A stretch of 64,000 nt of DNA, taken from assembly GCA_017525915.1 (NCBI GenBank), contig JAFXSC010000012.1, positions 1 through 64,000 of the forward strand. The letters run 5' to 3'. The DNA comes from Ruminococcus sp. (GTDB lineage: Bacteria; Bacillota; Clostridia; Oscillospirales; Ruminococcaceae). The position numbers and the translations under genes are program-made. Positions 6,941 to 42,000 of the stretch are shown piece after piece (the first letter of the stretch is position 1; every line of letters starts with the position of its first letter). A model generated the notes under the pieces. The model saw only the letters and a list, made by a program, of their open reading frames with translations, made no database searches and was not told the DNA's origin.

Positions 6941-6952
6941 GGAGTATTTGAT

Positions 6953-7726: not shown

Positions 7727-7734
7727 TTTATTAT

Positions 7735-7895
7735 TAGTCGAGAGTTGAAAGTGGATGGTGGAGAGTTTCTGTATCGCCTTACGGCGATAATATCAAAAAG
7801 GCATCGGAACAACTCTCAATTATCAACCCTGTTTTAGTTGCCGGACGCACAATGTGCGCCCCTACAAGCTATGCACTAACCACTGTAAAGAGGTA
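7735..7895. repeat. Dispersed intergenic repeat between thiG and thiH
   Basis: The 174-bp gap holds GAGAGTTGAAA at one end and ACAACTCTCAATTATCAAC further on, then a GCCGGACGCACAATGTGCGCCCC hairpin-like stretch and GCTATGCACTAACCACT. Similar pieces occur at 10358-10475 and elsewhere. It does not look coding and probably inserted into the operon. Confidence 0.55.
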
Positions 7896-7900
7896 ATAAA

Positions 7901-9154
7901 ATGGATAATAACTACTTTGTGGACTCGGACAAGCTCTCCGATGCCGCACTTGCTAAAAAGCACAGGCTTGAAAGTGATCCTTCGAGCCGTACCGACCACA
8001 TGGCTTACATGGAGGGCATGGAGCGCATAAGCTCCGATATCATGGAAAAAGTCATTTCCGAGATGAACTCCTACGACTACGATTCCTATACCGCTGCGGA
8101 CGTCCGTGCAGCTCTCGCTCACGATAACTGCACCGTCGAGGACTTCAAAGCCCTGCTCTCGCCTGCCGCTGAGCTCTTCCTCGAAAAAATGGCTGAGAAG
8201 GCTCGCCTTGAGACACAGAAACACTTCGGCAACACGGTCTACCTGTTCACTCCGCTGTATATCGCCAATTACTGCGAGAACTACTGCGTTTACTGCGGCT
8301 TCAACTGCTACAACGATATCCGCCGCATGAAGCTCAATATGGAGCAGATAGAGCATGAGATGAAGGTCATCGCGGACAGCGGAATGGAGGAGATACTCAT
8401 TCTCACCGGCGAGAGCCGTGCCCAGAGTCCCGTTGAATACATCGGCGAAGCCTGCAAGCTCGCCCGTAAATACTTCCGCATGGTCGGCATCGAGATATAC
8501 CCCGTAAACACTGACGAATACCGCTACCTCCACGAATGCGGTGTGGACTACGTCACCGTGTTCCAGGAGACATACAACAGCGACCGCTATGAACAGCTCC
8601 ACCTTCTCGGTCACAAGAGAGTGTTCCCCTACCGCTTTGAGGCTCAGGAACGCGCTCTCATGGCTGGTATGCGCGGCGTTGCAGGCTCGGCGCTTCTCGG
8701 ACTTTCCGATTTCCGTAAGGACGCCCTCGCAAGCGCTCTGCATATGTACTACCTCCAGAGGAAGTACCCGCAGGCTGAGATATCGCTCTCATGTCCGCGT
8801 CTCCGTCCCATTATCAACAATGACGAGATAAATCCCCTTGACGTACACGAAAGGCAGCTTTGTCAGGTGCTCTGTGCCTACCGGATATTCCTCCCCTTCT
8901 GCGGTATCACCGTTTCTTCAAGGGAGAGCAAGTCCTTCCGTGACGGCATCGTAAAGATAGCCGCGACCAAGGTCTCCGCCGGCGTTTCCACCGGTATCGG
9001 CGACCACGAGAGCAAGTATACCGGCAAGGAAGCAGATTCCGCTGAAGGCGACGAACAGTTCGAGATAAGCGACGCCCGCAGCTTTACCCAGATGTACAGC
9101 GATATGTCCGGCGAAGGCTTGCAGCCCGTCCTCAACGACTACCTCTATGTCTGA
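7901..9154 (+). CDS. thiH: 2-iminoacetate synthase ThiH
   Basis: 417 aa radical SAM enzyme with the cluster-binding motif CENYCVYCGF (CxxxCxxC) near residue 125. It cleaves tyrosine to p-cresol and dehydroglycine for ThiG. This is the oxygen-sensitive alternative to ThiO, which fits an anaerobe. ThiH-type sequence runs through to the C-terminus (LQPVLNDYLYV). Its end overlaps the tenI start by 8 bases. Confidence 0.95.
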   Translation: MDNNYFVDSDKLSDAALAKKHRLESDPSSRTDHMAYMEGMERISSDIMEKVISEMNSYDYDSYTAADVRAALAHDNCTVEDFKALLSPAAELFLEKMAEKARLETQKHFGNTVYLFTPLYIANYCENYCVYCGFNCYNDIRRMKLNMEQIEHEMKVIADSGMEEILILTGESRAQSPVEYIGEACKLARKYFRMVGIEIYPVNTDEYRYLHECGVDYVTVFQETYNSDRYEQLHLLGHKRVFPYRFEAQERALMAGMRGVAGSALLGLSDFRKDALASALHMYYLQRKYPQAEISLSCPRLRPIINNDEINPLDVHERQLCQVLCAYRIFLPFCGITVSSRESKSFRDGIVKIAATKVSAGVSTGIGDHESKYTGKEADSAEGDEQFEISDARSFTQMYSDMSGEGLQPVLNDYLYV

Positions 9155-9746
9155 TATCATCTGCGTTACGAACAGGAAGCTCTGCGGCGGAGACTTCCTC
9201 GCTCAGATAAGGAAAATAGCAGCCGCACACCCGAAAGCAATTATCCTCCGGGAGAAGGATATGCCCCCGGAGGAATACGCTCAGCTCGCAAAACAGGTCA
9301 TGGAGATATGCGCCGCTTACGGTACAGAATGCATTCTCCACAGCTTTGCAGATATAGCCATTGAACTCGGCGCGGAAGCGATACACCTTCCGCTGCACAT
9401 TCTCAAGGAAATGCCGGAGGAAATGAAGAATAGTTTCCGCATTATCGGAGCCTCCTGCCACTCGGCTGAGGACGCTGCGGAGGCTGAAAGGCTCGGCGCT
9501 TCATACATTACAGCCGGTCACGTTTTTGCTACCGACTGCAAAAAGGGACTGCCGCCGCGCGGACTTGACTTTCTCAGAGAGGTCTGCCGTACCGTACATA
9601 TCCCGGTCTACGCTATCGGCGGTATCACGCCGGAAAATATTAAGGATATACTCTCCTGCGGCGCTGCCGGAGGCTGTATCATGAGCGGACTTATGCAATG
9701 CGAAGATCCGCGCAGAATTATCGGAGGTGAAAGCTTTGTTAAATAA
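9147..9746 (+). CDS. tenI: ThiE-like thiazole tautomerase (TenI family)
   Basis: 199 aa ThiE/TenI-family barrel, more diverged than the next gene. It keeps the phosphate-binding end (VYAIGGITPENIKDILSCGAAGGCIMSG) but has a degenerate substrate region (IILREKDMPPEEY in place of QLREK), as in TenI-type proteins that aromatise the thiazole tautomer rather than couple the two halves. The assignment rests on this pattern and on the pairing with a canonical thiE. The start lies inside the end of thiH, implying translational coupling. Confidence 0.8.
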   Translation: MSDIICVTNRKLCGGDFLAQIRKIAAAHPKAIILREKDMPPEEYAQLAKQVMEICAAYGTECILHSFADIAIELGAEAIHLPLHILKEMPEEMKNSFRIIGASCHSAEDAAEAERLGASYITAGHVFATDCKKGLPPRGLDFLREVCRTVHIPVYAIGGITPENIKDILSCGAAGGCIMSGLMQCEDPRRIIGGESFVK

Positions 9747-10356
9747 GAAGCATCTCAGGCTCTATGCCATTACAGACCGTGACTGCCTTCACGGACGCGA
9801 CCTCGCCGAACAGGTCGAGCTTGCAATTCTCGGCGGAGTTACCTGCATACAGCTCCGCGAAAAGTACATCAGCGACGACGAGCTGCTCGAAAAGGCAAAG
9901 TCCCTTCTGAAGGTCTGCCGTCCATACGGCGTTCCGCTGATAATCAACGACAACTGGCAGGTCGCACTGCGGAGCGAAGCTGACGGCGTCCATGTCGGCA
10001 TCGAAGATGCTCCGGTAGCAGATATAAGGAAGATCGCCGGCGAAGATTTCATCATCGGTGCGACCGCAAAGACCGTCAGTCAGGCACAGTTCGCAGAGGC
10101 TTCCGGTGCGGACTACCTCGGAGTGGGAGCTGTTTTCCCTTCACCGACAAAGAAAAATGCCGTCCGCATAACGCCTGATATCCTGCGCGAAATATGCTCC
10201 GGCGTAAATATACCCGTCTGTGCAATAGGCGGCATCACCAAGGACAACGTCCGCGAGATACTGGGCTGCGGGCAGGCAGGCATAGCCGTCGTCTCCGCAG
10301 TATTCGCTCCCGATGACGTTAAAGCGGCAGCGGAAGAGCTTGCGGCAATGCTCTGA
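9736..10356 (+). CDS. thiE: Thiamin-phosphate synthase ThiE
   Basis: About 206 aa TIM barrel that joins HMP-PP and the thiazole phosphate to give thiamin phosphate. Visible signatures: LYAITDRDCLHGRDLAEQVE, CIQLREK, INDNWQVALRSEADGVHVG, and VGAVFPSPTKKNAV near the C-terminal half. The preferred start is the TTG at 9736, eight bases after GGAGG; a GTG at 9727 overlaps that ribosome site. The gene overlaps the end of tenI by 11 bases. Confidence 0.93.
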   Translation: MLNKKHLRLYAITDRDCLHGRDLAEQVELAILGGVTCIQLREKYISDDELLEKAKSLLKVCRPYGVPLIINDNWQVALRSEADGVHVGIEDAPVADIRKIAGEDFIIGATAKTVSQAQFAEASGADYLGVGAVFPSPTKKNAVRITPDILREICSGVNIPVCAIGGITKDNVREILGCGQAGIAVVSAVFAPDDVKAAAEELAAML

Positions 10357-10357
10357 G

Positions 10358-10475
10358 AAGTTGAAATTTACGATTTTGCCTGACGGCGATGAATTATAAT
10401 ATCCAAATCAGTCCGCATAAGCAAACACCACAGCTTTCAACTCTCAATTCTCAACTCTCAGCTAATTACGCATGA
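10358..10475. repeat. Dispersed intergenic repeat between thiE and thiD
   Basis: The gap runs from GAAGTTGAAA through TGACGGCGATGAATT to TTTCAACTCTCAATTCTCAA and CTCTCAGC. It shares the GAGTTGAAA / CAACTCTCAATT ends and the ACGGCGAT centre with the insert between thiG and thiH. Non-coding. Confidence 0.55.
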
Positions 10476-10494
10476 AAATGTTAGGAGGTTAAAT

Positions 10495-11295
10495 ATGAAA
10501 ACAGCACTGACTATTGCCGGAAGCGACAGCTCCGGCGGTGCAGGCATACAGGCTGACATAAAGACTATGACAATGAACGGCGTTTACGCCATGAGTGCGA
10601 TAACCGCTCTGACTGCCCAGAATACTACTTGTGTCAGGGCAATAAGCGAGGTCAGGCCGGAGTTCCTGAAACAGCAGATAGACGCGGTATTCGAGGACAT
10701 ACGTCCGGACGCCGTAAAGATAGGCATGGTGTCGAATGCGGCACTTGTGGAGGTCATTGCGGAGCGGCTGCGCTTCTACGAAGCCGAGAACATAATAGTT
10801 GATCCCGTTGCCGTGGCTACAAGCGGCTCAAAGCTCAGCTCGACCGAAGCTTATGAGGCTCTGAAGCGTGAGCTCCTCCCGATAGCCGCGCTCGCTACTC
10901 CGAATATACCCGAGGCAGAGCTGCTCTCAGGCATGAAGATAAACAATGAGCAGGACATGGAAGCCGCTGCAAAAGCGATCGTGGAAATGTTCGGCTGCAA
11001 CGTACTTGTCAAGGGCGGTCACGGCATGAGCGATGCGAACGACATACTCCACCGTCTCAACGGTTCGCACCACTGGTTCACCGGCAAGCGCGTGAACAAC
11101 CCGAATACCCACGGCACAGGCTGCACTCTCTCAAGTGCGATCGCTGCGAACATGGCGAAGGGACTTGGTCTTCCGGAGGCTATACAGCGAGCAAAGGACT
11201 ACATCTCCGGCGCTCTCGGCGCAATGCTCTGTCTCGGTCACGGAAGCGGTCCGCTTGACCATATGTTTGACCTGAAAAGTAAATTTGCGGACTGA
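10495..11295 (+). CDS. thiD: Hydroxymethylpyrimidine (phosphate) kinase ThiD
   Basis: 266 aa ribokinase-like enzyme that phosphorylates HMP and HMP-P to HMP-PP. The N-terminal [22 protein letters not shown] and C-terminal [22 protein letters not shown] (anion hole and catalytic region) are diagnostic. GGAGG lies 6 bases upstream of the ATG. Confidence 0.96.
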
Positions 11296-11315
11296 CCGCA
11301 CGAAAGGAATATATT

Positions 11316-12629
11316 ATGAGAAATTACAGCACACAGATGGAAGCCGCCAAAAAGGGCATTATCACTCCCGAAATGGAGGTCGTTGCAAAGAAGGAATACA
11401 TCGAGCCCGAACAGCTCCGTGAACTCGTTGCAAAGGGCGAGGTTGCTATCCCCTGCAACATCAACCACAAGTCCATATCCCCCGAGGGTATCGGCACCCG
11501 TATGCGTACCAAGATAAACGTAAATCTCGGTATCTCCGGCGATGTCAAGAACTACGACATGGAGATGGAAAAGGTAGATATGGCGCTGAAATTCGGTGCG
11601 GAGGCTATCATGGACCTCAGCAACTACGGAAAGACCAACACCTTCCGTCAGGCACTCGTTGCAAAGTCGCCTGCAATGATAGGTACAGTCCCGATGTATG
11701 ACGCTATCGGATACCTCGACAAGGACCTCCTCGAGATAACCGCGAAGGACTTCCTCCGAGTTGTCCGTGCTCACGCTGAAGAGGGCGTTGACTTCATGAC
11801 TATCCACGCCGGTATCAACAAGCGTGCAGTCGAGGCTTTCGTCCGTGACAAGAGAAAAATGAACATCGTTTCACGCGGCGGCTCACTGCTTTTCGCGTGG
11901 ATGGCTATGACCGGCAACGAGAATCCCTTCTATGAGTATTACGATGAAGTTCTCGATATCCTCCGCGAATTTGACGTTACTATCAGCCTTGGCGACGCTC
12001 TCCGTCCCGGCTGTCTTGACGATGCTACCGACGGCGGTCAGATAGCTGAGCTCATCGAGCTCGGCGCACTCACAGAGCGTGCATGGGCTAAGGACGTTCA
12101 GGTAATGGTCGAGGGTCCCGGCCACATGGCTATGGACCAGATCGCTGCAAATATGAAGCTCCAGAAGCGCATCTGCCACAACGCTCCGTTCTACGTCCTC
12201 GGACCTCTCGTTTCTGATATTTTCCCCGGCTACGACCACATTACTTCCGCTATCGGCGGAGCTATCGCTGCCGCAAGCGGTGCGGACTTCCTCTGCTATG
12301 TAACTCCCGCAGAGCATCTCCGTCTGCCGGACGCTGACGACGTTAAGGAAGGCATCATCGCAAGCCGTATCGCTGCTCACGCTGCCGATATCGCAAAGGG
12401 CATCCCCCACGCTATGGACGCCGACAACGCTATGGCTGCCGCACGTCACGCCCTCGACTGGGAGAAGATGTTCGAGATAGCCGTTGACCCGGAGAAGGCT
12501 CGCCGCTACTATGAGAGCACCCCTATCGCTGAGCGACACACCTGCTCGATGTGCGGTAAGATGTGCGCTGTACGCACTACAAATATGATCCTCAACGGTG
12601 AAAAGGTCGAGTTTTGCTCGGAAAGATGA
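11316..12629 (+). CDS. thiC: Phosphomethylpyrimidine synthase ThiC
   Basis: 437 aa radical SAM enzyme converting aminoimidazole ribotide to HMP-P. It is the shorter form lacking the long N-terminal domain, as is usual in anaerobes. The C-terminal [11 protein letters not shown] (CxxCxxxxC) holds the 4Fe-4S cluster, and [14 protein letters not shown] and [20 protein letters not shown] are family signatures. It follows thiD by 20 bases with GAAAGGAA upstream. Confidence 0.97.
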
Positions 12630-13384: not shown

Positions 13385-16300
13385 TTATGCAGCTTTGAAG
13401 ACATATCTGAGGAAGTTATACATATGAGGTCTTACAGTATTTCCGCCGTGGTCGCCGTCCGGGATTATCTGCCAGAGGTGCTCGACGCTGTTGGAGGTGA
13501 GTACGTTATGATAGCTTTCCGGGTAAGTTCCGACCGTACCGTCATGCTGTGCTGCGGAAATAAGAATCATATAGGGCTTGGTGGAAGGCTTGAATTCGCT
13601 TTCCTGCTTGAGTGAACCCTCGTGATCCATGAGACCGTCATTGGTCTTGAAGATACCGGGTGCAGGGCAGGCGCCGCCGACATAGCCGTAAACCTCTGAA
13701 CGTGTGATGCCTGTGTAGAGAGCCTCACGTCCGCCCATTGAGAAGCCGGTTATCGCTGTATTCTCCCTGCCGGTCTTGATGGAGTAATTCTCCGCCATGA
13801 AAGGCATTATGCTGTTCTCGAGGTCATCGCGTATCGCATCGTATGCGCGTGAGGACTCATTTGTAAAGCCGGGAGTTGCGGTCGAAGATGTGAACATATC
13901 CGGGAATACGACTATCATCTTTTCAGCCTTGCCGTCAGCGATAAGGTTTCCGAGCATGGTCTGTATCTTCATGCTGTCGTCGAGCATGGAGTTCTGGTTG
14001 CCGAAGATACCGTGCATAACATAGAGCACCGGGTACTTCTCGGAGGCATTATATCCGGGAGGAAGGAGAACATTCAGCCCTTTGGACTTGCCTGCGTCCT
14101 TGGAGTAATAGGTCTTTGACTCTAATTTTCCGTAGTCAACACCGCTCCTCTTTGAGGTAACGGAGCTGTCCTCCTTGATCTTCATATCGTTTGCTATCTG
14201 AGCCATATAATCACCGGTAGGGGTCTTGCCCGCAGTTACGGTCGTAGTAGTGGTGGACTGTGATTTTGTAGTTGTGGTAGTTCCCTGCTCAAACTTCTTG
14301 CTCTTACCGAGGAGGAACTTGGCTATCTGCACCATATCGGCAACGGTATACTCACCGTTTCCGTCAACGTCGGCAGCCTTCAGCACCTTAGCGTTGTTTG
14401 AAGTGCCGGCGAACTGGTTAACGAGGGTCTTTCTCGCAAGTATCATATCGAATACGTCTATCTTGCCGTCGAAGGTCAGGTCGCCGGGGATAACGGTAAA
14501 TCCGGAAGAACCTGCACCGGGAATGACTGTACCGTCAACTGCTGCCGCGATATCGTCAACATAGAAATCTATGCCCTCATCGCCCTCAGTCTCAACGTAG
14601 ATATAGCAGTTCTTGGCGCCCTCGGGGATAGTGAAGCTGGTATTCGCAAGCTGTGTCCACTCGCCCTTTGTAACGGTCTGGGTGTCGATCTTCTTGTAAA
14701 CCGCGTCACCGCCTGCACCGTCGTCATACTGGAGAGTGAAGTGGAAGGTATTGGTCGGTTCGCCTGTTGTGTACTTTACGTTAGCGGAGAAGCTGTAACT
14801 CTCGCCAGCCTTGAACTTGTAGCCGAGAGCCTTTGAAACGCCGTTCCACGCAGCAGTTCTGCCCGAAACGAGCGCAGAAGCAGCACCGTTATAATACTCA
14901 TCGGCCGATTTTGCGACCTTTGCCGCACCTCTGCCCGACCAGCCGTCAGTACCGCTCTCGAAGCCGCTCTGGAAGATATAGGTCTTGTCACCGGCAGCTG
15001 TGCTTCCCTCGCCGTCGAACTGCCACCAGTCAACATTCATGAGGTAGGTGTCAGTGCCTCTGAATACAAAATATACGTCATGCTCACCGCTTGCACCCGA
15101 GATATTGGTCGAGACCTCTTCCCAGTCCTGCCAGCCGCCTGTGCCTGATACACGAAGGACTCCGACTACCGGACCGTCCTTTGCGTCGAGGTGTATCTCC
15201 ATAGTGCCGCCTTCTCCGGCAGCAGCAACGCTTGCCTTGAAGGAGTCAGCGCCTGCACCGAAGTCAACACCAGTGACCCTGACATAGCTGCCGTCCTTGA
15301 TATTACCGATATTCACGCCGCCTTCGCTGCACTTCTCGGTCTTTACGCCCTCGCACCAGTTTATTGTCTCAGCCTCTACCCTCTCGAACGGGTTGAGAGC
15401 CTCTATCTGGTCGGGACCTGATTTTGTGAGCTTCATAACGGGGATAGTACCGTCAGCGTTGAAGGTGAACTCCTCGCACGATGCGCTTCTGTTGTAAGGA
15501 CCACCGCCGGTCAGACCGTTCTTGTGATAGAAGAAGTATGAATGGTCTTTATAATCAATGATACCGCCGTGGGTCGTGAAGCAGTTTGAACCCTGCTGAA
15601 TAGCGCCGCGGTATGTCCACGGGCCTGTGGGTGACGGACCCGTTGCATAGCACTGGCTCTCGCCGCCGTACTCGCTCAGAAACGATGCCCAGATGAGGTA
15701 ATACAGACCGTTGTGCTTGCATATCCACGGACCTTCGCCGTAGGAGGTCTTATGCTCGCCGGCAGGAGGACCGAACTGCTGTGATGTCATATCAAAGCTC
15801 TTTATCTCGCCGTCGAGAGTGACCATGTCCTCCTTGAGCTTTACATAATAGCAGGTAGGATTTCCGAACATGAGCCATGCCTGACCGTCGTCGTCGATCA
15901 TGACAGTCGGGTCGATGTAAGCCCAGTCAGGACCGCACAAAGGCTTTCCGAGGACGTCCTTATATGGACCCTCGGGACTGTCTGCTACAGCAACACCGAT
16001 AGCACGTCCGCCGCCTCCGGGTCCCTGATTAGTTGTTGTGAAGTAGAAGTAATACTTGCCGTTGCGCTCGATACACTGTGAAGCCCACGCATCATTCTTA
16101 CCGCACCAAGAGAATGAGGTGTCCTCAAGTATCCTTCCGTGGTCAGTCCAGTTCTTCATATCCTTTGTTGAGAAGCACTGCCAGCCAGTCATATAGTAGA
16201 AGTCGTTGTTGCCCTCGCGGTCGCAGCCTGTGAATACATAGAGCTCGTCACCGAATACAACAGGTGCCGGGTCTGGTGTAAACGAAGTCTGGACGATAGG

Positions 16301-16390
16301 ATTATCCGCCTTAGCAGTCTCCGGAGCTGTGAAATTGAACGCCGAGACCGCCATGACTGCCGCAAGAGCAGCTGAGATCATCTTTTTCAT
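13385..16390 (-). CDS. Secreted GH43-CBM6-CBM-dockerin-CE1 xylan-degrading enzyme
   Basis: 1001 aa from MKKMISAALAAVMAV, a Sec signal cut near residue 28. Domains in order: a GH43 five-bladed propeller (about 30-330) with catalytic-type Asp in TPDPAPVV, modulating Asp in YIDPTVMIDDDG and acid Glu in SYGEGPW; a CBM6 (about 340-465, opening with FERVEAETINW); a CBM22/CBM4_9-like jelly roll (about 475-630); a type I dockerin with two calcium repeats (GDLTFDGKIDVFDMILARK and ADVDGNGEYTVADMVQIAK, about 640-710); a Thr linker; and a CE1 esterase (about 740-1001) with nucleophile motif GFSMGG and terminal DGDHGG His. It should release arabinose or xylose side units and feruloyl or acetyl esters while docked in a cellulosome-like complex. 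Which substrate each domain prefers is inferred. GAGGGG lies upstream. Confidence 0.93.
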   Translation of the reverse strand: MKKMISAALAAVMAVSAFNFTAPETAKADNPIVQTSFTPDPAPVVFGDELYVFTGCDREGNNDFYYMTGWQCFSTKDMKNWTDHGRILEDTSFSWCGKNDAWASQCIERNGKYYFYFTTTNQGPGGGGRAIGVAVADSPEGPYKDVLGKPLCGPDWAYIDPTVMIDDDGQAWLMFGNPTCYYVKLKEDMVTLDGEIKSFDMTSQQFGPPAGEHKTSYGEGPWICKHNGLYYLIWASFLSEYGGESQCYATGPSPTGPWTYRGAIQQGSNCFTTHGGIIDYKDHSYFFYHKNGLTGGGPYNRSASCEEFTFNADGTIPVMKLTKSGPDQIEALNPFERVEAETINWCEGVKTEKCSEGGVNIGNIKDGSYVRVTGVDFGAGADSFKASVAAAGEGGTMEIHLDAKDGPVVGVLRVSGTGGWQDWEEVSTNISGASGEHDVYFVFRGTDTYLMNVDWWQFDGEGSTAAGDKTYIFQSGFESGTDGWSGRGAAKVAKSADEYYNGAASALVSGRTAAWNGVSKALGYKFKAGESYSFSANVKYTTGEPTNTFHFTLQYDDGAGGDAVYKKIDTQTVTKGEWTQLANTSFTIPEGAKNCYIYVETEGDEGIDFYVDDIAAAVDGTVIPGAGSSGFTVIPGDLTFDGKIDVFDMILARKTLVNQFAGTSNNAKVLKAADVDGNGEYTVADMVQIAKFLLGKSKKFEQGTTTTTKSQSTTTTTVTAGKTPTGDYMAQIANDMKIKEDSSVTSKRSGVDYGKLESKTYYSKDAGKSKGLNVLLPPGYNASEKYPVLYVMHGIFGNQNSMLDDSMKIQTMLGNLIADGKAEKMIVVFPDMFTSSTATPGFTNESSRAYDAIRDDLENSIMPFMAENYSIKTGRENTAITGFSMGGREALYTGITRSEVYGYVGGACPAPGIFKTNDGLMDHEGSLKQESEFKPSTKPYMILISAAQHDGTVGTYPESYHNVLTSNSVEHLWQIIPDGDHGGNTVRPHMYNFLRYVFKAA

Positions 16391-16583
16391 TGGTTTTCCC
16401 CTCCTGATAAATATAATACATCGAAATGTGAACATACTATTTCTTTATACAGATATGTTACCACATTAACATTGTATTTACAACCTATAAAATGAAGATT
16501 AGGTGGATAAATTGCAGTATTTCTATTAATAATACCTTATTACTTTACCCAATGCAAATATTAACTGTCAGCAATCAACAATT

Positions 16584-19197: not shown

Positions 19198-19677
19198 TTA
19201 GTATATTAATGTAACTGTATTTGGTATAGAAATCGATGTCATATTTGAAAAATACTCAATCGCACGACATCCAATACCTGTAATTCCATCTTCAATAATA
19301 ACATTACACTAATTATTGTTTAAGACTGACCACGAAAGACTTCTAATGTTATCACCTGTTATGACGCCATCACCGCTGATATACAGTGTTTTCCCATCGT
19401 ATTTCCATTTGCATCCGTCACCAAATATACCGGTAACTATGTTTGAATCAGTTATTGTAGTTGAAGTAGTAGTTGTAGTTGTTGTTGTAGTAGAAGTAGT
19501 TGTCGAAGTCGTTGTGGTTGTAGTGGTTGTAGTTGATGTACTCGATGTGGTAGTAGTTGTTGTCGTTGAAGTTGTTGTACTTGTTGAAGTAGATGTTGTG
19601 GTCGTTGTCGTAGTAGTAGTCGTAGTAGTGGTGGTAGTGGTAGACAGTTTATCAGTATCCAGAGATCTGTACAACCG
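19198..19677 (-). pseudogene. Truncated Thr-linker / LRR surface protein fragment
   Basis: The frame has no start codon. It begins with about 65 Thr/Ser residues, then GIFGDGCKWKYDGKTLYISGDG, the usual opening of Ruminococcus LRR_5 proteins. A TAG at 19309 follows, after which the same frame continues with an LRR unit (IIEDGITGIGCRAIEYFS...ISIPNTVT) until TAA at 19198. So the gene lacks its 5' end, carries an internal stop, and is cut on the 3' side close to where the recombinase gene begins. It is a remnant of a secreted protein. Confidence 0.75.
19451..19644. repeat. Thr-codon microsatellite
   Basis: An irregular array of GTN trinucleotides on the plus strand (ACN codons on the minus strand) of about 190 bp encodes the poly-Thr linker of the LRR fragment. 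Such tracts are prone to length change. Confidence 0.85.
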
Positions 19678-19745
19678 AATTATGTGATTTAGTCAAGGCG
19701 ATCTATGCCTATGCTGAGATTTTTAAGTAAGAAAGGAAATGTAAG

Positions 19746-19871
19746 ATGGAAAAGAATTATGTTACCCCTGAAATGGAAATTACGGAATTTGAAACAGAAG
19801 ATGTGATCACTACAAGCGATACAAGCGGAAATCCCGCACCAGAACTGCCGGAAATTCCGGACGTGGGATGA
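19746..19871 (+). CDS. Small acidic peptide, EDVIxTS family (41 aa)
   Basis: A 41-codon gene with ATG, an AAGGA site about 10 bases upstream, and its own terminator 20 bases after the stop. It begins MEKNYVTPEMEITEF and continues ETEDVITTS, then a Gly/Pro/Glu-rich tail. The first half matches the peptide at 33034-33132 in 15 or more positions, including YxxPExxIxxFxxEDVIxTS, so both are probably real genes. There is no signal peptide, no Cys, and no obvious maturation enzyme next door. It could be a precursor peptide, a small regulatory protein or a toxin/antitoxin-like product; function unknown. Confidence 0.72.
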   Translation: MEKNYVTPEMEITEFETEDVITTSDTSGNPAPELPEIPDVG

Positions 19872-19890
19872 AATACTTGGTTTCTAACGA

Positions 19891-19925
19891 CAGGCGGCTT
19901 TGTGCCGCCTGTTTGTTGTCTGTTT
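19891..19925 (+). terminator. Terminator of the 41-aa peptide gene
   Basis: CAGGCGGC/GCCGCCTG hairpin with loop TTTGT, followed by GTTTGTTGTCTGTTT. Confidence 0.8.
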
Positions 19926-20415
19926 GCATTTTTACCGGAAAACTGATATAGTAATTATATCAACTCACGGAGGGATATACATGAAACTAACTTGAGCTTT
20001 CTTATCCGCGTTACAAAGGGCGAGCATTACTTAATCAGCACCAGCGATACAACGGAAGCTGTACCACAGCGGCAAATCAGATATGAGACAGTTTGCTATG
20101 CACGTACATGAGATTGCCGGGAATTACTGTAAACCTGAGATCAAGAAATAATGTCAGGTTGATCCATATATAAAAAATGAGCTCCTCCCAATACTGGGAG
20201 GAGTATATTTTGGAATTACTTTCCTTCGTTGATTGCAGCCTGTACCGTAGTTAGGGAGCAGTCGGATTTCAGTCTATAAAAGGCTATATTTCACTACGGA
20301 TTAGATATGACAAAATCCTCCATTGTTAGCAATTATAATGGAATGCTACAAAAACTGGATTGGATTTGAGAAGCAGCAATTACGGCTATCTTTAGCATTT
20401 TCTGATTTTTATCAA
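19926..20415. other. Island spacer without a confident gene
   Basis: About 490 bp. It contains a short broken plus-strand frame (FLIRVTKGEHYLISTS, ending after about 40 codons) with no start, a minus-strand fragment ending SLTTVQAAINEGK near 20220, and a hairpin CTCCTCCCA/TGGGAGGAG at 20182-20203. On the minus strand that hairpin is followed by a T-rich stretch and may end the kinase operon. The fragments look like debris of mobile-element genes. Confidence 0.5.
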
Positions 20416-33033: not shown

Positions 33034-33132
33034 TCACTTTAATTTGTCGTCTTCAAGAAGAGTGGAAGTAGCTATCACATCTTCTGAATCAAATGCGATT
33101 ATCTGTATTTCCGGTGAAGTATATTTTTCCAT
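33034..33132 (-). CDS. Small peptide, EDVIxTS family (32 aa)
   Basis: 32 codons from ATG 33132 with AAGGA nine bases upstream. The sequence begins MEKYTSPEIQIIAF and continues DSEDVIATS with a short charged tail LLEDDKLK. The first 23 residues match the 41-aa peptide at 19746-19871 in pattern, while the tails differ. It lies 69 bases after the stop of the giant surface protein gene on the same strand and just before a hairpin, so it is probably co-transcribed with it. No Cys and no signal peptide. A conserved head with a variable tail is the layout of leader/core precursor peptides, but no modification enzyme is adjacent; the function is unknown. Confidence 0.72.
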   Translation of the reverse strand: MEKYTSPEIQIIAFDSEDVIATSTLLEDDKLK

Positions 33133-33201: not shown

Positions 33202-36200
33202 TTACCAGTTGTTAGAAGGCTGATAGATGACCGGATCTACTTCCTGATGCTTATCTTTGTACGCCTGCACAGCTTCGCCATATTTTACGATAGCAGTTGC
33301 CACATTTCTGAGATCATCGTTCTGTGTAGAAGCTATCATTCTCTTTGCATAAGTGAAGACGCCGTACTTTATCTCTGCATAATCATCAGGATCAGAAACG
33401 GACTCTGCTCGCACCACTGGCATCTGGCAGAACTGTGTCGGCAAAATGCCCCTGAAGCATACAGTACATACATTGCCGTTCTGCACCGCTTTGGCAGTGG
33501 TACCATTAACTGTGAAGCGATAGTCCTTCTTGGATTTACCGTCAGCGATCTCGAACTTCACGATCAAAGTGATGTATGAAGAGATCGAGAGGTTTGCAGT
33601 GACGGCTTCGACAGTAGTTCCGTTATTATTAATAACTGCATCATACTCTTCTCCGACATTCACTGCTACATTGCCGAGAGGCATACCGAGCTGATTGTTA
33701 ATGCACTTTTCATCCGGTTCTCCGGCATACTTCTGAAGATATCCGGCGTAATTCATAACCGCCTTTACCAGATCAACAGTCTCCTCATCGAGCGAATCGT
33801 TCTTCAGCAGCTCTTCAAAATAAGTCCTGAGACTGTAATTGAGCACTGAACCGCTCCTTCCGTCAGAGTAGCTGATCTGAGCCGTTACGGACGTTGAAAC
33901 GTTAACAAGGTCTATCTTGCAGCTGAATGAGTACAGATTGCCTTCAGTCCTGATCGCATCAGACAGTTTTACAGTCTGAACGCTGCCGTCCTCAAAAGTG
34001 AACTTCATTTCTGCATTCTTGTCGCTGATTGCAGAAGGACTGAGAGATACCAAGAGGTTAAGCTTATATTCGCTGTCAATAGTAACGCTTGCAAATGTAA
34101 ATGCGTCGCGGCCGTTCTTCAGTTCTCCGCACAATTTGCATATTCCATGCGAGTTGAATTCATGATGAATGTCTGCATAGTAAATATGTGCGCCTGCTTC
34201 TGCACCGGCAGTAAAGGGCTCAAACGGAGTATCGTGATACTCGTCAGCGTACCAGCCGTTTATCGGGCAAGAATCATTTCCTATATCGGGCAGAGAATCA
34301 ATATTGGTTCCGGGGCTGACCTGAATGAGCTCAGTTCTGCCCTCCCAGTAATTCAGAAGGATGTTTACTTTAAGGTCATGCTCAGTTTCGCTGTAATCAC
34401 AGATCTCGCCCTCAGCAACGAACGAACAGCCTTCCTTGACAGTGGTATGTGTACCGGGTGCAATGATAACTGTGATGAAATCCGGAATAGTTACGTTTGT
34501 GGTTATGCTGATATTTCCGAACAGAGTCATTGTAGTGGGCTCACCGGCTGCTGCTGCATCAGCAATAGCACCTCTTACGTCCTGATAGCATTCGCCGTTT
34601 GCAAGCATAGCCGTTGCAGAACTATGAATATTCTTTGCATTAATGAGCTGACCGCATTCTTTGCAGACGCGTACAGCGGTACCATTTTCTCCGTTTGCCG
34701 GAACGTCCAGCACATACCAGTCGCCGGAACAATCATGAGACTCGAAACTGTGTATCGGGTAATCAATGACATAGCCGTCGTCATATTCAATATGCACTAA
34801 AGCATCTCTGTTTCCTTCCAGTGCTTCGATTGAAAGAACTGCATCTCCGGTGACGCAAATTGAGCCGTCCTCATATGTCTCAAACTCGCCCTCAATAACG
34901 CCGATATTAAAACCACTGTTCTTGGCGTTGAAGAAGGTTTCTCCTTCAATGCTCCTGAGTTCTACTCTTGCTGTGATCGAGTCAGACGTCTGATGAAGTA
35001 CAGCGATACACTCGCCGTTAATGTTGTATGCATTATCATAAGAACCGGACATTCCGCAGTAGCTCCAGACACTCATAAGGAATCTTGCATAGTCGGAAAG
35101 CTCTTCCGGGTCGAGGTCTGTGCCAAAGTCGCTGATAAGGTGTTTTTCGGCACCGACGGTCTGATAAACGTCATCTCCATTACAATTCCTGAGTGCGAAG
35201 CTGAGCGCCTCCTTATCCATTGCGCGGAAATAGTGGCTGGTGTTCTTCTGATTCAGTTCATTGGGAACATCACCGACTATAAGTTCATACGGGATTTTAG
35301 TGTCGGAACCTGTCAGAGTGACTGCCGGTGTTCTCTCCAGAATGCTGTAATACGGGAGATCGCAGAGAAATGCGTTATAGAGATCCGAGCAGAATTTAAC
35401 TGTCTTCAGCCACGGAGTTGAACCTAATGCACTTGTCAGAACGGTAACGTAAGATTGATTATTCATGCGTGCAATTTCCTTCATGAAGAATTCTTTGCAG
35501 ACATCGTTGACATCGAATGTGATCTGAACGCTTTCACCAGGCAGGATATTAGGAATGTGGACAAGCTGCTCACCGTTAACGCACTTGACCATCCTGCTAG
35601 TTACAATGTCATAAGAAGTACCGCCGGCGTTGATGTAACGGACAGTAACAGTTCCCTGTTCGATATCCCTGAGCTTGTAATCAAGATCATAAATAGGCTT
35701 GTCAGATACATTTTTTAAGATAATATCTATCGGATACTGCTCTTCAAGGGAAGCAGAACCCGGAAGCTCGACGTTCATTTTCAGTGCATCAGCTGCATAG
35801 ACGTGCAGGTCGTCTTTACAGTTGAAGGGATACGAGAACTCGTCGCCTTGATATACACCGCTCAAAAGTACGCCGATATTGTAGGTACCGGTCTTATCAG
35901 CTCTGAGATACCAGTGAATATCAGATACAGCAGACGGAGCAAGATCAGCCAGTTCCTGTGTCTGTTCGCTGTTGCAGAGAGTGAGACCATCGGGAACATC
36001 AAGGACCGCCTTGCAGTCCTCAAGTGTTTGATTGTTCTTATTTATAACGATGAACTGGACATCATAGAATTCTTTGAGCCACTTTGATTCACCGTAGGTG
36101 ACGATGTACATTTCTACGTCTTCGTTCTCACAGCGGCTGACACTCGCTCCGAGCTCCGGAATGTAGACCGGCTCACTCGGATGATATGAATGCGGATCTG

Positions 36201-38775
36201 TATCAATCAGGACAGGATTGCTGTGCGGAGGCGTGATATAAACGTTTTCCGCAACAACGACACCGGAAGGATCGACAACATTATAGGTATTGAGAGTAAC
36301 TCTTTCAGCATCATAGACCATTTCGACCTCATAGTTGAAGACATGGTAATTATCATCAACTGAAATGTCAATGCCTGATGCTACGATATCCTCCATCGTC
36401 ATCGGTGTAACAGTCATTTCGCCGTCAACGTTGAGACGGTGAGGCTGTTCAAGTTCCTCCGGCAGATCGGGAACATATTCTGTTACGACCGGAGCAAAAG
36501 GAGCTCTTGTAGTTGTCGTAGTCGTAGTCGTCGTAGTAGTAGTGGTAGTTGTTGTAGTAGTTGTTGTATAGGCAGGGTCATAGTGATTGCACTTTCTGCC
36601 TGTGTTCCTGTCAATATTCTGGCAGTAGCCGGAAGTGTCGTGGTTATGACCGGTCGCAAGCTCTCCGTCTTCGCCTCTGTCGAAGAGGTCCGGAGACTCA
36701 TACTCGCAGTTCGCGCACTTCTTGTTCCAGCGCTCGTTCTCGGTGCAGGTTGCCCTTCTGACAACGCGGCCCCAGACAATTTCATGCTCAACAGTGAGCG
36801 TCCTGCCGGACATTGCACTATCATTGGTGTAAATGGTCTCACCCTGCGGATTTGAAGGGCTGCAAGAGTGATTCTGAACATAGTAGTAAACTCTATTATC
36901 ATTGCCGAGATGCGGTAATGCTTCGCCGTTTTCAAGATCCTGAGACCATGCGCTGCCCATTGTGTACGCAATTGCACCGCTTGCAAACTCATCATCAGAA
37001 GCACCGAAATAGTTTTCATTCTCAGTAAGGATGAAAACATTCGATACACGGGAATCTTGATTGCCGAGATCGAAGAGCTTTTCAGTACCGGTTCCTGCAA
37101 AATAGGAAGAAGTGAAATTCGACGACGTTACATCATAAAGCAGACCTGCTGCATAATCACCGCTGACAAAAGCGGTACTGTAGACGTTAGTTACTGTCGT
37201 GCCATCTTTCGCAGTCGCTGCGATAGATGCAACCTTTGCATCTGATGTAAAGCTGGAATTCTCGATACCGAGATCCTTGACAGTCGCGCCGTTCAGGATG
37301 TTGAAGAGACCGCCTGCTTCGGTGCTGTTGAAGTTAATACCGCTGATCGTATGGTTCTTACCATCAAGCACGCCGGAGTATTCGCTGATCGGAGTCCATT
37401 CGAGATCGTCGGCAGCATTCGCGTTCATGTTCATGTTGAAGCGGATGTCGTTTACAAGGTCTATGTTAACATTATTTGCAATATCGCCGCTGTTGATGTT
37501 CTTTGCAAGCCACATGAGCTGTCCGGCGTTTCTGACCTCATATCTGATATTGCCGTTTTCGGAGAAGCTATGCGGCTCCTGGAAGAAGATCGGCGACTCA
37601 GAAGTGTGGTCATCTCCAAGCGGACAGCTGCTGCCGCCGTAGCAGATACCCTCAGCGTTGAATGCGTGTTTCTTGAAAATATGGATATCGCCGATAGCGA
37701 AGATCACGCTTTTCTCAATTGTCACACCTGCCGGAATATTCAGACCTTCCCACGAATATGCAATACCGGAGTCATAGCCGATATTGTAATCTGACTGCGT
37801 GTGGTCACTCCATGCATTAGCGTTTCTTTCGCCGTAGTAACCCCACCAGCAATTTGCATCCTCCGGAAGGGAGAGCATGAAGATATTGTCCCCGCCGTCG
37901 CGCATCTCCAAATTTTTGACATTGTAATCCACAAAGTTTTCTGCATTCAGCAATGTATAATCATCTGAATACGCATATATTGCAGCACGGTCATTTCCTC
38001 CGATCTGAACGTCCGCGGTACTTGCAATAGCGAAACCATCAATATCTTCATCTGAACGATTCTGGATATAATAGGAGACCTTTGTATACAGATTGTCTTC
38101 TAGGTTATCAGAAATATTGCCGTAGCAATCGCAGAAAGAGAATACCGGCGTTACGACAAGACCTCCATTTATATTAAATGTTGCCTTGTTTTCGTAGTGG
38201 GTGATACTGCCTCGATAGTTTCCGATTTTATAGAGGATATCGTATCCGTGGTCTGACCAGGTTGTATTCAGAGAACCGTTGTTTCCTTTGAAATCGTAGA
38301 AGTTGGAGTGATTCAGATAGTTCACAAGGCCGGAATACGGATTTGTTCTTTCAGTGTAGTCATACTTCCATGAGGCATAATAAGTGGTATCAGCTTCAAA
38401 CTGCTCCATGACAGTGCCGCCTGCATCTGTCCAGCCGGCAAATACGAGACCTGACAGCGCCGGTGCTTCCGGCAGCGGCGTATATGCAGGATCGTTGGTA
38501 TCCTTCAACACTGCAACTCCGTCGGTCACGGCGAATTTCTCATCGTCCAGTGAGCCGCCGTTCAGGTCAAATCTGATCGATGTGGAAGTGACATCAGGTA
38601 CCTTCTGAACTCCCGGATCGTACGGATCGACAGGAGCAACAGAACCGCCGCTCTCCCCGTCTGCCTCAGCGTAGGAGGTCAGAATTGTTCCCGTAAGGCA
38701 GGTTGGCATCATCCCTGCAATTACCGTCAGCGATGTGACGGCTGACAGTATTTTGTTGAATTTAGAGTGCTTCAT
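33202..38775 (-). CDS. Giant secreted surface protein with Thr linker
   Basis: 1857 aa from MKHSKFNKILSAVTSL (AAAGGAATT upstream), with a signal peptide cut near residue 37. Recognisable parts: an InlB/Listeria-Bacteroides-type repeat (about 60-130, IRFDLNGGSLDDEK...FAGWTDAGG); a domain resembling GLUG/beta-helix repeats (about 410-580, GVLDGKNHTISGINF, GGLFNILNGATVKDLGIENS); a Cys-rich stretch (CTENERWNKKCANCEYES); a linker of about 20 Thr (736-755); Ig-like or CARDB-like segments; and a C-terminal module seen in other Ruminococcus surface proteins (LRNVATAIVKYGEAVQAYK). No LPxTG, dockerin or transmembrane anchor is seen. It may be an adhesin or scaffold; role unproven. Confidence 0.88.
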   Translation of the reverse strand: MKHSKFNKILSAVTSLTVIAGMMPTCLTGTILTSYAEADGESGGSVAPVDPYDPGVQKVPDVTSTSIRFDLNGGSLDDEKFAVTDGVAVLKDTNDPAYTPLPEAPALSGLVFAGWTDAGGTVMEQFEADTTYYASWKYDYTERTNPYSGLVNYLNHSNFYDFKGNNGSLNTTWSDHGYDILYKIGNYRGSITHYENKATFNINGGLVVTPVFSFCDCYGNISDNLEDNLYTKVSYYIQNRSDEDIDGFAIASTADVQIGGNDRAAIYAYSDDYTLLNAENFVDYNVKNLEMRDGGDNIFMLSLPEDANCWWGYYGERNANAWSDHTQSDYNIGYDSGIAYSWEGLNIPAGVTIEKSVIFAIGDIHIFKKHAFNAEGICYGGSSCPLGDDHTSESPIFFQEPHSFSENGNIRYEVRNAGQLMWLAKNINSGDIANNVNIDLVNDIRFNMNMNANAADDLEWTPISEYSGVLDGKNHTISGINFNSTEAGGLFNILNGATVKDLGIENSSFTSDAKVASIAATAKDGTTVTNVYSTAFVSGDYAAGLLYDVTSSNFTSSYFAGTGTEKLFDLGNQDSRVSNVFILTENENYFGASDDEFASGAIAYTMGSAWSQDLENGEALPHLGNDNRVYYYVQNHSCSPSNPQGETIYTNDSAMSGRTLTVEHEIVWGRVVRRATCTENERWNKKCANCEYESPDLFDRGEDGELATGHNHDTSGYCQNIDRNTGRKCNHYDPAYTTTTTTTTTTTTTTTTTTTTRAPFAPVVTEYVPDLPEELEQPHRLNVDGEMTVTPMTMEDIVASGIDISVDDNYHVFNYEVEMVYDAERVTLNTYNVVDPSGVVVAENVYITPPHSNPVLIDTDPHSYHPSEPVYIPELGASVSRCENEDVEMYIVTYGESKWLKEFYDVQFIVINKNNQTLEDCKAVLDVPDGLTLCNSEQTQELADLAPSAVSDIHWYLRADKTGTYNIGVLLSGVYQGDEFSYPFNCKDDLHVYAADALKMNVELPGSASLEEQYPIDIILKNVSDKPIYDLDYKLRDIEQGTVTVRYINAGGTSYDIVTSRMVKCVNGEQLVHIPNILPGESVQITFDVNDVCKEFFMKEIARMNNQSYVTVLTSALGSTPWLKTVKFCSDLYNAFLCDLPYYSILERTPAVTLTGSDTKIPYELIVGDVPNELNQKNTSHYFRAMDKEALSFALRNCNGDDVYQTVGAEKHLISDFGTDLDPEELSDYARFLMSVWSYCGMSGSYDNAYNINGECIAVLHQTSDSITARVELRSIEGETFFNAKNSGFNIGVIEGEFETYEDGSICVTGDAVLSIEALEGNRDALVHIEYDDGYVIDYPIHSFESHDCSGDWYVLDVPANGENGTAVRVCKECGQLINAKNIHSSATAMLANGECYQDVRGAIADAAAAGEPTTMTLFGNISITTNVTIPDFITVIIAPGTHTTVKEGCSFVAEGEICDYSETEHDLKVNILLNYWEGRTELIQVSPGTNIDSLPDIGNDSCPINGWYADEYHDTPFEPFTAGAEAGAHIYYADIHHEFNSHGICKLCGELKNGRDAFTFASVTIDSEYKLNLLVSLSPSAISDKNAEMKFTFEDGSVQTVKLSDAIRTEGNLYSFSCKIDLVNVSTSVTAQISYSDGRSGSVLNYSLRTYFEELLKNDSLDEETVDLVKAVMNYAGYLQKYAGEPDEKCINNQLGMPLGNVAVNVGEEYDAVINNNGTTVEAVTANLSISSYITLIVKFEIADGKSKKDYRFTVNGTTAKAVQNGNVCTVCFRGILPTQFCQMPVVRAESVSDPDDYAEIKYGVFTYAKRMIASTQNDDLRNVATAIVKYGEAVQAYKDKHQEVDPVIYQPSNNW
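36508..36568. repeat. Thr-codon microsatellite in the giant surface protein
   Basis: About 20 consecutive Thr codons on the minus strand (GTN trinucleotides on the plus strand), the inter-domain linker. Confidence 0.9.
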
Positions 38776-38890
38776 TTTCAATTCCTTTCTGTTTCTGGCA
38801 ACGCCATATTTATTATATACGCAGCAGTTATAACCCACGGCATCATAATAACCATTTAACATACCAGCCGTGAATTATTACAGACAATTA

Positions 38891-40865: not shown

Positions 40866-41945
40866 TCAGACCGCACTGCCGCCGCATCTGAAATAGCGTT
40901 CAAAACGCACCTTCCCGGCTTGCCGCATCTTCACCGCAGTCTCGTCCGAAATGTGTATCAGTGTTTTCTCATAACGGCACTGAAACGCGGAGACCTCCCC
41001 TTCGCTGCCGGTCTCGAGCTTGTTCAGGCAGCCGCAGGAATGCAGGCAGCGCTTTCTGAGGGGACACTCACGGCATGGAGCCGGCGGCTGATAGCGTATT
41101 GCAAGCTGAGCACACTTTTTCCGCGAAATGCCGTCAAATACGTTGCCGACACAGTATTGCTCATCGCCGATGAACTGATTGCAGGCGTAGATATTACCGT
41201 CCGGAGCGACCGGCATCTGATTGAAGCCAAGGTGACACCTCTCGTTGATGTCCCTGCCTTCGAGCGCTCCGCGTATCTTGCTTTCAACAGGACTGAAATA
41301 GAAAGGCTCACCTGAAAGAAGACATTCCGCGTAAAACTCTGCCGCCTCCGCAAGCTGAGCGAACAGTTTTTCCTGTGCCGCTTCGTCCCACGATACTTTA
41401 TTTCCGTACGCAGGAACAGCGTTGATATTCCTGAATCCAAGTCCGTAAAGGTATCTTACAGAGGCGGCAAGCTTCTCCACAGCCTGAGGAGCTGCGGTCA
41501 TCATTGCAGTTGTCCCCGGCATGACCGCAAGCAGACGCTTTGCGGCAGCTTCAACATCAGTCAGAGTGCCTGCGCCGTCCCTGTATTTCCGGCAGACATC
41601 CTGCATCAGTCCGTCAAACGAAATCCCTGTCTCCATTTTTACGCTTGCTGCACGGGCGAGCAGCCTTTCGGAGAGAAGCGTACCGTTTGTGGTCATACGG
41701 TAGTATACAGGCTTTCCGGTCTCAGCGGAAAGAGCCGCGCAGGTATCCATAGCATCGAAGATGAGATCCTCGCAGAGCAGAGGCTCTCCGCCGAAAAAGC
41801 AAAGCCCCGAATGTGCGCCCTCTGAAAACGCGAGCCTGCACGCAGCGTGAAGGACCTCCGGCGTCATGGTCTCAGCGCGTTTATCCTGTGTGCAGTAGGT
41901 GCAGTCCATATTGCAGCCGTCAGTCAGATGCAGGGTAAGATTCAT
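40866..41945 (-). CDS. Radical SAM/SPASM-domain protein
   Basis: 359 aa from MNLTLHLTDGCNMDCTYCTQ, with GAGGTGG upstream. The CxxxCxxC cluster motif is at residues 11-18. A SPASM-type C-terminus with many Cys (CNQFIGDEQYCVGN, CRECPLRKRCLHSCGC) binds further Fe-S clusters. The FFGGEPLL and TNGTLLSE motifs place it with sulfatase-maturase and RiPP-modifying enzymes. No sulfatase is adjacent. The only short peptide genes I can see in the window are the two EDVIxTS ones, 8 and 21 kb away, so the substrate is open. Confidence 0.88.
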   Translation of the reverse strand: MNLTLHLTDGCNMDCTYCTQDKRAETMTPEVLHAACRLAFSEGAHSGLCFFGGEPLLCEDLIFDAMDTCAALSAETGKPVYYRMTTNGTLLSERLLARAASVKMETGISFDGLMQDVCRKYRDGAGTLTDVEAAAKRLLAVMPGTTAMMTAAPQAVEKLAASVRYLYGLGFRNINAVPAYGNKVSWDEAAQEKLFAQLAEAAEFYAECLLSGEPFYFSPVESKIRGALEGRDINERCHLGFNQMPVAPDGNIYACNQFIGDEQYCVGNVFDGISRKKCAQLAIRYQPPAPCRECPLRKRCLHSCGCLNKLETGSEGEVSAFQCRYEKTLIHISDETAVKMRQAGKVRFERYFRCGGSAV

Positions 41946-42000
41946 AATAACCACCTCTTTTATATTGTAGCACACAGCCGGAGATTTTTCAATCCATAAT

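Follow-up and report, generated by a model that had tools for sequence, protein, structure and literature searches.

Short head-and-tail peptides beside secreted proteins in Ruminococcus: probable precursors of a dispersed RiPP pathway of the linear polyphosphorylated peptide type

Background

Genes for HprK-like and PqqD-like proteins are found as a pair in the HPr-rel-A and SynChlorMet cassettes. The described system closest to the genes reported here is that of the linear polyphosphorylated peptides (LPPs), RiPPs encoded by the gene set lppA-K-B-S-D-N and published in May 2026 (Popov et al., PMC13381572; statements about LPPs here refer to the text of that paper). LPP precursors carry the motif YxxPxVLxHQxIxFETxxS, whose YxxP part is bound by the RRE; cleavage after F-E-T is the work of a SipW-like peptidase, and Ser3 of the core receives several phosphates from the kinase. 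The final product and the biological role are stated there as unknown. An earlier note on the present DNA had held that peptides of its kind have no described function, which no longer applies to the family, now published, and still applies to its role.

That DNA (the window) is a stretch of 64,000 nucleotides from a Ruminococcus sp. (assembly GCA_017525915.1, contig JAFXSC010000012.1, positions 1 to 64,000). It contains two short genes, P1 and P2, which we compare below with the LPP system and with other described gene sets.

Results and discussion

Two short genes with a conserved head

P1 (33034-33132, minus strand) encodes the 32-residue peptide MEKYTSPEIQIIAFDSEDVIATSTLLEDDKLK, and P2 (19746-19871, plus strand) the 41-residue peptide MEKNYVTPEMEITEFETEDVITTSDTSGNPAPELPEIPDVG. 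The earlier note had rightly put the two genes on opposite strands and given their translations a shared head, YxxPExxIxxFxxEDVIxTS; the distance between them, given there as 14 kb, is 13.4 kb. The ribosome site and hairpin that it assigned to each gene were also recovered: AG-rich ribosome-binding sites precede both starts (AAGAAAGGAA, read by eye), a terminator-like hairpin with a U-run directly follows P1 (32992-33031, minus strand; -22.8 kcal/mol, z -7.2), and another terminator-like hairpin follows P2 (19889-19913, plus strand; one found by the scan, 0.3 expected). The consensus terminator scan did not list the P1 hairpin and listed two others nearby. A hairpin at once after a short ORF would suit a cis-acting leader ORF (attenuator), whose translation controls transcription termination; the ORF, however, usually stands after the large gene rather than before it, and its amino-acid sequence is kept across 79 different head DNAs, so that we regard attenuation as very improbable.

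Neither peptide matched a family in Pfam or NCBIfam, and the string EDVITTS had no occurrence in the literature searched. A tblastn search with P1 and the head profile define a family, with 12 members in the source genome (3.09 Mb, 67 contigs). P2 is found at E 0.012 by the single-sequence search with P1 and at E 5e-12 by the profile, which recovers the same 12 at E 6.5e-15 to 8.8e-12 (next match E 3), all 12 heads, P2 included, being rows of that profile. The earlier note had proposed such a profile search, and it finds homologues beyond the source genome, in 34 of the 59 other genomes of our genus sample (heads at E <= 0.01 in 35 of 60 with the source genome included, and up to 14 heads in one genome). 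Ten of 125 genera, with 15 of 197 genomes, have the head in a family-level sample; as the phylum-wide search found it in the source genome alone (1 of 299), the EDVIxTS form has a narrow distribution.

The heads have a mean pN/pS of 0.26 (3081 pairs of the 79 different head DNAs, with pS near saturation), and 114 closer pairs give 0.098/0.368; the amino acids of the head are therefore conserved by purifying selection, a second point on which the note had sought evidence. Among 100 heads, counted without selecting on the positions concerned (these counts replace those from 91 heads, whose pattern fixed several positions), Tyr1 is found in 97, Pro4 in 87, Phe11 in 99, Asp or Glu at position 12 in 92, and a small residue (N/A/T/S/C) at position 13 and the last Ser in all. 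P2 does lie between decayed neighbors, as a chance ORF or the decayed end of a larger gene might; this explanation is refuted by the 12 copies in one genome, the conservation over many species and the purifying selection, and we give it practically no credence. Three loci (L159 and L175, minus strand; L228, plus strand) hold two or three precursors each, with similar heads and different tails.

Secreted partners upstream of the peptides

The P1 unit is intact, with an intact partner gene and the terminator-like hairpin. The partner, a protein of 1886 residues with a signal peptide and a Thr linker (33202-38862, minus strand), has its stop 69 nt ahead of the P1 start; it matched no Pfam family above cut-off, and its C-terminal tandem domain is common to 53 further partners (of 82 in total). 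P1 had been placed directly after this giant surface protein before, and adjacency of this kind proves to be the rule across the family. About 2 kb upstream of the partner, on the same strand, lies a radical SAM/SPASM protein gene (40866-41975, minus strand) with no observed tie to P1, whose product best resembles peptide maturases (PapB family, E 2.6e-50, below cut-off).

For nine of the 12 peptides of the source genome, a large gene on the same strand ends no more than 69 nt before the start; the exceptions are P2 and its paralogue on contig C41, both with remnants only, and a copy of P1 on contig C31. Over the genus and family loci, 82 of 100 heads have before them, on the same strand and ending no more than 120 nt away (median gap 18 nt), an ORF of 100 residues or longer; a few of the ORFs counted are no real partners (an antisense ORF at P2, a kinase gene at L067, a lipoprotein at L093 and a 166-residue ORF at L095), and 18 heads are without a qualifying ORF. 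When a home-made signal-peptide rule was applied to the 78 upstream ORFs whose start is intact, 65 looked Sec-secreted; among other ORFs the rule picked 83 of the 447 with 150 residues or more (p 1e-28) and 49 of the 227 with 300 or more (p 2e-22). This background was drawn from the genus loci only, through a simple longest-ORF caller, and the partners from loci of both genus and family. The rule replaced a more permissive one, under which 311 of 563 background ORFs were positive. That most precursors adjoin one secreted protein each is a rule, not a coincidence.

The tandem domain of the partners ('...NYGxAAQxYF...KALYLYxQAA') is present in 54 of 82 partners versus 9 of 447 other ORFs, a contrast that is partly circular because the profile was seeded from partners; some of the nine resemble truncated partner copies. 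It has no convincing relative in Pfam or the PDB. Eight partners were scanned, with LRR/DUF285, the Listeria-Bacteroides repeat, GH5 cellulase and transglutaminase among the matches; two had a DPBB match just below cut-off and look expansin-like by eye, and two others had no match.

The decayed surroundings of P2

At P2 the partner and RRE genes have decayed, and the P2 ORF itself is intact. Directly upstream is a remnant of a partner C-terminus (ELCDLVKAIYAYAEIFK, then a stop; 19677-19730, plus strand), for which tblastn with partner C-termini gave a best true match of E 0.002, the IFK and stop being read from the sequence. Downstream, a remnant of a PqqD/RRE gene (19989-20051, plus strand) is 76% identical over 21 residues (E 4e-8) to the intact RRE beside the C41 paralogue, and the DNA at 19748-20050 is 80.7% identical over about 305 bp to that locus (L021). 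The remnant makes the statement in the earlier note that no modification enzyme is adjacent somewhat inexact, and with the enzymes encoded in trans that statement no longer counts against a precursor; P2 could be served in trans. The Thr-linker fragment that it had set beside P2 is indeed a neighbor, and requires one correction: the ORF (19309-19674) is on the minus strand, opposite to P2.

Recombinase-like genes, belonging to one cluster, occur near P2 (17950-19196, minus strand) and near other family peptides (L015, L080 and L102), and may act as movers of peptide units. Elsewhere in the window are a gene for a 1016-residue secreted protein (13385-16435, minus strand), by eye glycoside hydrolase-like with dockerin-like repeats, a Thr linker and an esterase, and a run of thiamine biosynthesis-like genes (6302-12629, plus strand; by eye ThiF, ThiG, ThiH, two ThiE-like, ThiD and ThiC).

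Enzyme genes that co-occur with the head

An HprK-like kinase was found in 30 of the 35 head-positive and in none of the 25 head-negative genomes of the genus sample (p 5e-12), and a PqqD-type RRE in 29 and none, respectively (p 1.5e-11), with p values that ignore the shared ancestry of the genomes; within the 34 best assemblies the kinase is in 20 of 23 head-positive and 0 of 11 head-negative genomes. Four of the 35 head-positive genomes gave neither match: G005, G016, G023 (66% complete) and G032, in which the sole head match holds an internal stop. A scan of named genomes confirmed the kinase at no fewer than 568 places, of which the best 80 were kept, many of them ending at contig ends; these are mostly from Ruminococcus, R. 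flavefaciens strains included, with others from, for example, Hespellia stercorisuis. Among these best 80 of at least 568 loci, an RRE is present in 67, the peptidase in 62, the exporter in 58, the NTP transferase in 44 and the head in 32; the gene order HprK-RRE-SipW/S24-like peptidase-ABC-NTP transferase is complete in 23, and the head occurs in 17 of the 38 with long flanks.

In the source genome the set is divided among contigs: C42 carries the kinase (single copy), the peptidase and the exporter, C37 one of the two RRE genes, behind a Thr-rich lipoprotein, and C41 the other RRE and the NTP transferase behind a peptide much like P2. The C41 copy is the sole one of the 12 peptides seen beside intact machinery genes. 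Since the enzymes are encoded on these three contigs, most precursors, among them P1, must be served in trans; one shared enzyme set probably modifies, trims and exports the peptides of the family. Because many precursors lie far from the enzymes, cluster-based genome mining would miss them.

The co-occurring kinase and RRE genes, the clustered peptidase, exporter and nucleotidyltransferase genes, and the Tyr/Pro part of the RRE-binding motif kept in the head lend good support to the comparison with leader/core precursors that the earlier note had drawn; the lack of Cys and of a secretion signal, which it counted against this comparison, loses its force, since LPP precursors as described in the text of PMC13381572 need neither. 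A different possibility is that the peptides stay unmodified, are made right after the secreted partner and serve it as small adaptors or chaperones, in which case the RiPP genes would be unrelated to them; the tight same-strand linkage (82 of 100, median gap 18 nt) and the single peptide of 12 beside intact machinery would allow this. We consider this unlikely, given that the kinase and RRE co-occur with the head in the genus sample, that heads are present in 32 of the best 80 of at least 568 kinase loci, and that the head keeps the residues for RRE binding and F-E-T cleavage of the LPP leaders described in the text of PMC13381572.

Assignment of the individual enzymes varies in strength. The Walker A motif of the kinase, SGTGKST, is invariant in 11 sequences save for one near-invariant position; matches to curated HprK models were weak and below cut-offs, and among PDB sequences the kinase profile found weak matches only (HprK 1ko7 at E 0.81). 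One RRE scanned, from L082, matches Pfam PqqD (PF05402) above cut-off, one NTP transferase matches PF14907 (1e-41) and one exporter has ABC_membrane and ABC_tran domains, the last two enzymes both being encoded in the source genome. The S24-like peptidase has Pfam and NCBIfam matches below cut-off and an ambiguous position for the catalytic Asp; Ser is conserved in 61 of 61 sequences and His in 60 of 61, with a spacing of 39 residues between them in the reference sequence, the Ser count being partly built in because the 61 were chosen by an [ST]-containing motif and one match without it was dropped. In a phylum-wide sample the kinase was found in 8 of 378 genomes (E 1e-12); outside the genus it occurs also in other cassettes, and without an EDVIxTS head being found (head in 1 of 299 phylum genomes).

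The best PDB matches of the RRE profile are the lasso RREs TfuB1 (1.5e-5) and TbiB1 (0.012). A YxxPx[L/I/M] leader, a discrete RRE, HprK and an NTP transferase are also common to lasso clusters, as far as the texts of PMC10368454 and PMC7533575 describe them, and the peptides could accordingly be lasso peptide precursors. We dropped this reading, now scarcely credible to us, on the B2 leader peptidase PF13471, which is absent from the source genome and present in 2 of the 60 genus-sample genomes; nor was a cyclase gene noticed beside heads when the neighbors were viewed by eye.

In a few loci a radical SAM/SPASM protein gene lies 5' of the kinase (L082:9140-10504 and L087:9367-10746, both plus strand; L202). 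The heads of L082 and L087 have a variant form, YxEAELEI, with Ala in place of Pro, which suggests a sub-type with extra chemistry. A small SAM methyltransferase gene stands within the cassette at L100 (1926-2609, minus strand; scanned) and at L082 (11923-12594, plus strand; similarity by eye).

Variable tails and Thr-rich lipoproteins

The tails are 6 to 22 residues long (mode 7), acidic and rich in Pro in the first 80 members, and their composition is associated with partner type. Behind tandem-domain partners the Gly fraction is 0.075, versus 0.177 elsewhere (p 0.001; 38 of 5000 permutations of the labels within genomes are as extreme), and the motif [PNL]E[TLIV] is present in 24 of 41 tails behind tandem-domain partners versus 5 of 27 others (p 0.001). 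This test is post hoc, with 81 of 82 rows parsed and L108, L109, L062, L099, L090 and L094 set apart by hand; the non-tandem group is not made up of true partners alone, and the tail motifs, partner types and lipoprotein motif were all chosen after looking at sequences. GLP tails go with three expansin-like partners in three genomes (two with a DPBB match, one by eye), and tails ending in E[ST]SIH with two partners that look metalloprotease-like by eye (no Pfam match). A weaker tail pattern, E[LIVFM] followed one or two residues later by P, occurs in 10 of 90 and is not clear of chance (matched by 9 of 1000 shuffles). Joint inheritance alone could explain the match between tail and partner.

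An end of the type [LFIVW][PS]xxP is found in 18 of 24 Thr-rich small lipoproteins versus 4 of 30 other small lipoproteins of the loci, and, by a rough rule, in 13 of 96 peptides. At L108 the lipoprotein and the downstream peptide both end in PIELPLVPLR, and at L111 and L206 a single open frame runs through lipoprotein, head and tail. A motif-bearing lipoprotein-like ORF lies directly upstream of 9 of 80 kinase genes (best 80 of at least 568) and of 5 of 67 RRE genes, where one of the five looks spurious (L237) and one is a fusion (L206); given these low counts, the lipoprotein is a minority feature.

A proposed pathway and its meaning

Taken together, we think it quite probable that an LPP-type RiPP pathway acts in trans on about 12 scattered precursors and that P1 and P2 are among them. 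RRE binding, phosphorylation, cleavage and export are predicted here by homology with the enzymes in the text of PMC13381572. Since the gene set is shared with LPPs, the head would correspond to a leader plus the conserved start of the core, and the tail to the variable part of the core. The border after F-[DE]-x, which we adopt through the LPP paper, is a possible, predicted one; it combines the F-E-T cleavage motif in the text of PMC13381572 with the F-[DE]-small residue pattern of our heads, and P2 itself reads F-E-T ahead of EDVITTS. It would divide P1 into a leader MEKYTSPEIQIIAFDS (33085-33132) and a core EDVIATSTLLEDDKLK (33037-33084), both on the minus strand, and P2 into a leader MEKNYVTPEMEITEFET (19746-19796) and a core EDVITTSDTSGNPAPELPEIPDVG (19797-19868), both on the plus strand. 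A border after the final Ser, our first reading, by analogy with Thr(-2) of lasso leaders, is also possible; aligning the head Ser with the LPP Ser of the published text instead moves the cut site elsewhere.

In the LPP-type pathway that we favor, the Tyr, the Pro and the hydrophobic residue of YxxPE[ML] would bind the PqqD-type RRE, and the HprK-like kinase would phosphorylate a Ser, likeliest the one that closes every head. The SipW/S24-like peptidase would then cut after F-[D/E]-small residue to give a core of EDVIxTS plus the variable tail, which the ABC exporter would secrete and to which the NTP transferase may attach a further group. Outside the cell, the core would act with the secreted protein encoded just upstream, its tail matched to that partner. 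The gene order is naturally read as pointing to joint action of core and partner, a proposal that is drawn from association and unproven. More tentatively still, and with some doubt on our part, the cores might be partner-specific surface peptides for docking, anchoring or maturation, with a tail matched to the upstream protein (tandem-domain/LRR, expansin-like, metalloprotease-like or beta-type), and the Thr-rich lipoproteins with the same kind of tail might display an equivalent epitope at the membrane.

If this is true, one RiPP machinery serves a dozen surface proteins, and RiPPs can be parts of surface assembly rather than antibiotics or pheromones. In Ruminococcus, named R. flavefaciens strains included, the LPP-like machinery seems to serve many precursors, and the linkage to secreted partners hints at a purpose for peptides that have had no role assigned, which makes the role of LPPs directly testable.

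Comparison with known systems

Matches of the genes described here to the HPr-rel-A and SynChlorMet models (NCBIfam TIGR04352, TIGR04249 and TIGR04353) fall far below the curated cut-offs. Paeninodin-like phosphorylated lasso peptides share the [Y/W]xxP leader, discrete RRE, HprK kinase, NTP transferase and ABC exporter; they differ in that PF13471 is absent from the source genome, the peptidase here is of another family and no cyclase was noticed by eye. In DAG-RiPPs, the RiPP-lipoprotein hybrids of a preprint (PMC12636315), a precursor is naturally joined to a lipoprotein signal, as at L111 and L206; as far as the text of that preprint goes, an MNIO enzyme recognizes a C-terminal motif there, whereas here the genes are RRE and HprK and the head lies inside the protein.

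The LPP system, as set out in the text of PMC13381572, is the closest. It has the same enzymes in the same order (HprK, discrete RRE, SipW-like peptidase, MsbA-like ABC transporter and NTP transferase), does not require lasso enzymes, and has precursors with a conserved N-terminus (YxxP...F-E-T...S) and a variable C-terminus; the peptidase Ser-His spacing of 39 is that of LppS (S29/H68). The motifs differ: YxxPE[ML]x(4)F[DE]xEDVIxTS here lacks the VLxHQ of YxxPxVLxHQxIxFETxxS and has a Tyr-Phe spacing of 10 rather than 13, and a cut after F-[DE]-x would place the candidate Ser at position 7 of the core, in contrast to position 3 in LPPs. The hosts are Ruminococcus here, and a Paenibacillus and other Bacillota (Bacilli mapped) for LPPs. 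The precursors here are scattered, up to 14 per genome, beside Sec-secreted proteins and Thr-rich lipoproteins, whereas those of LPPs number one to three per cluster and lie, in Bacilli, in capsule loci.

The dispersal of precursors and their linkage to secreted partners are absent from the text of PMC13381572, whose main part has no word beginning with Ruminococc, Clostridi, lipoprotein or secreted and whose supplements may name Ruminococcus members. At two loci from other Bacillota (L303 and L304), homologous cassettes adjoin short ORFs near the published LPP motif, for example YSKPEITHEEEIEFETAIS, which were sought with a loose YxxP...F[DEQ] pattern, and at L297 a cassette adjoins an intermediate form of the head, found by the head profile. 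Judged by their sequences, these forms appear to bridge the Ruminococcus heads to the published LPP motif.
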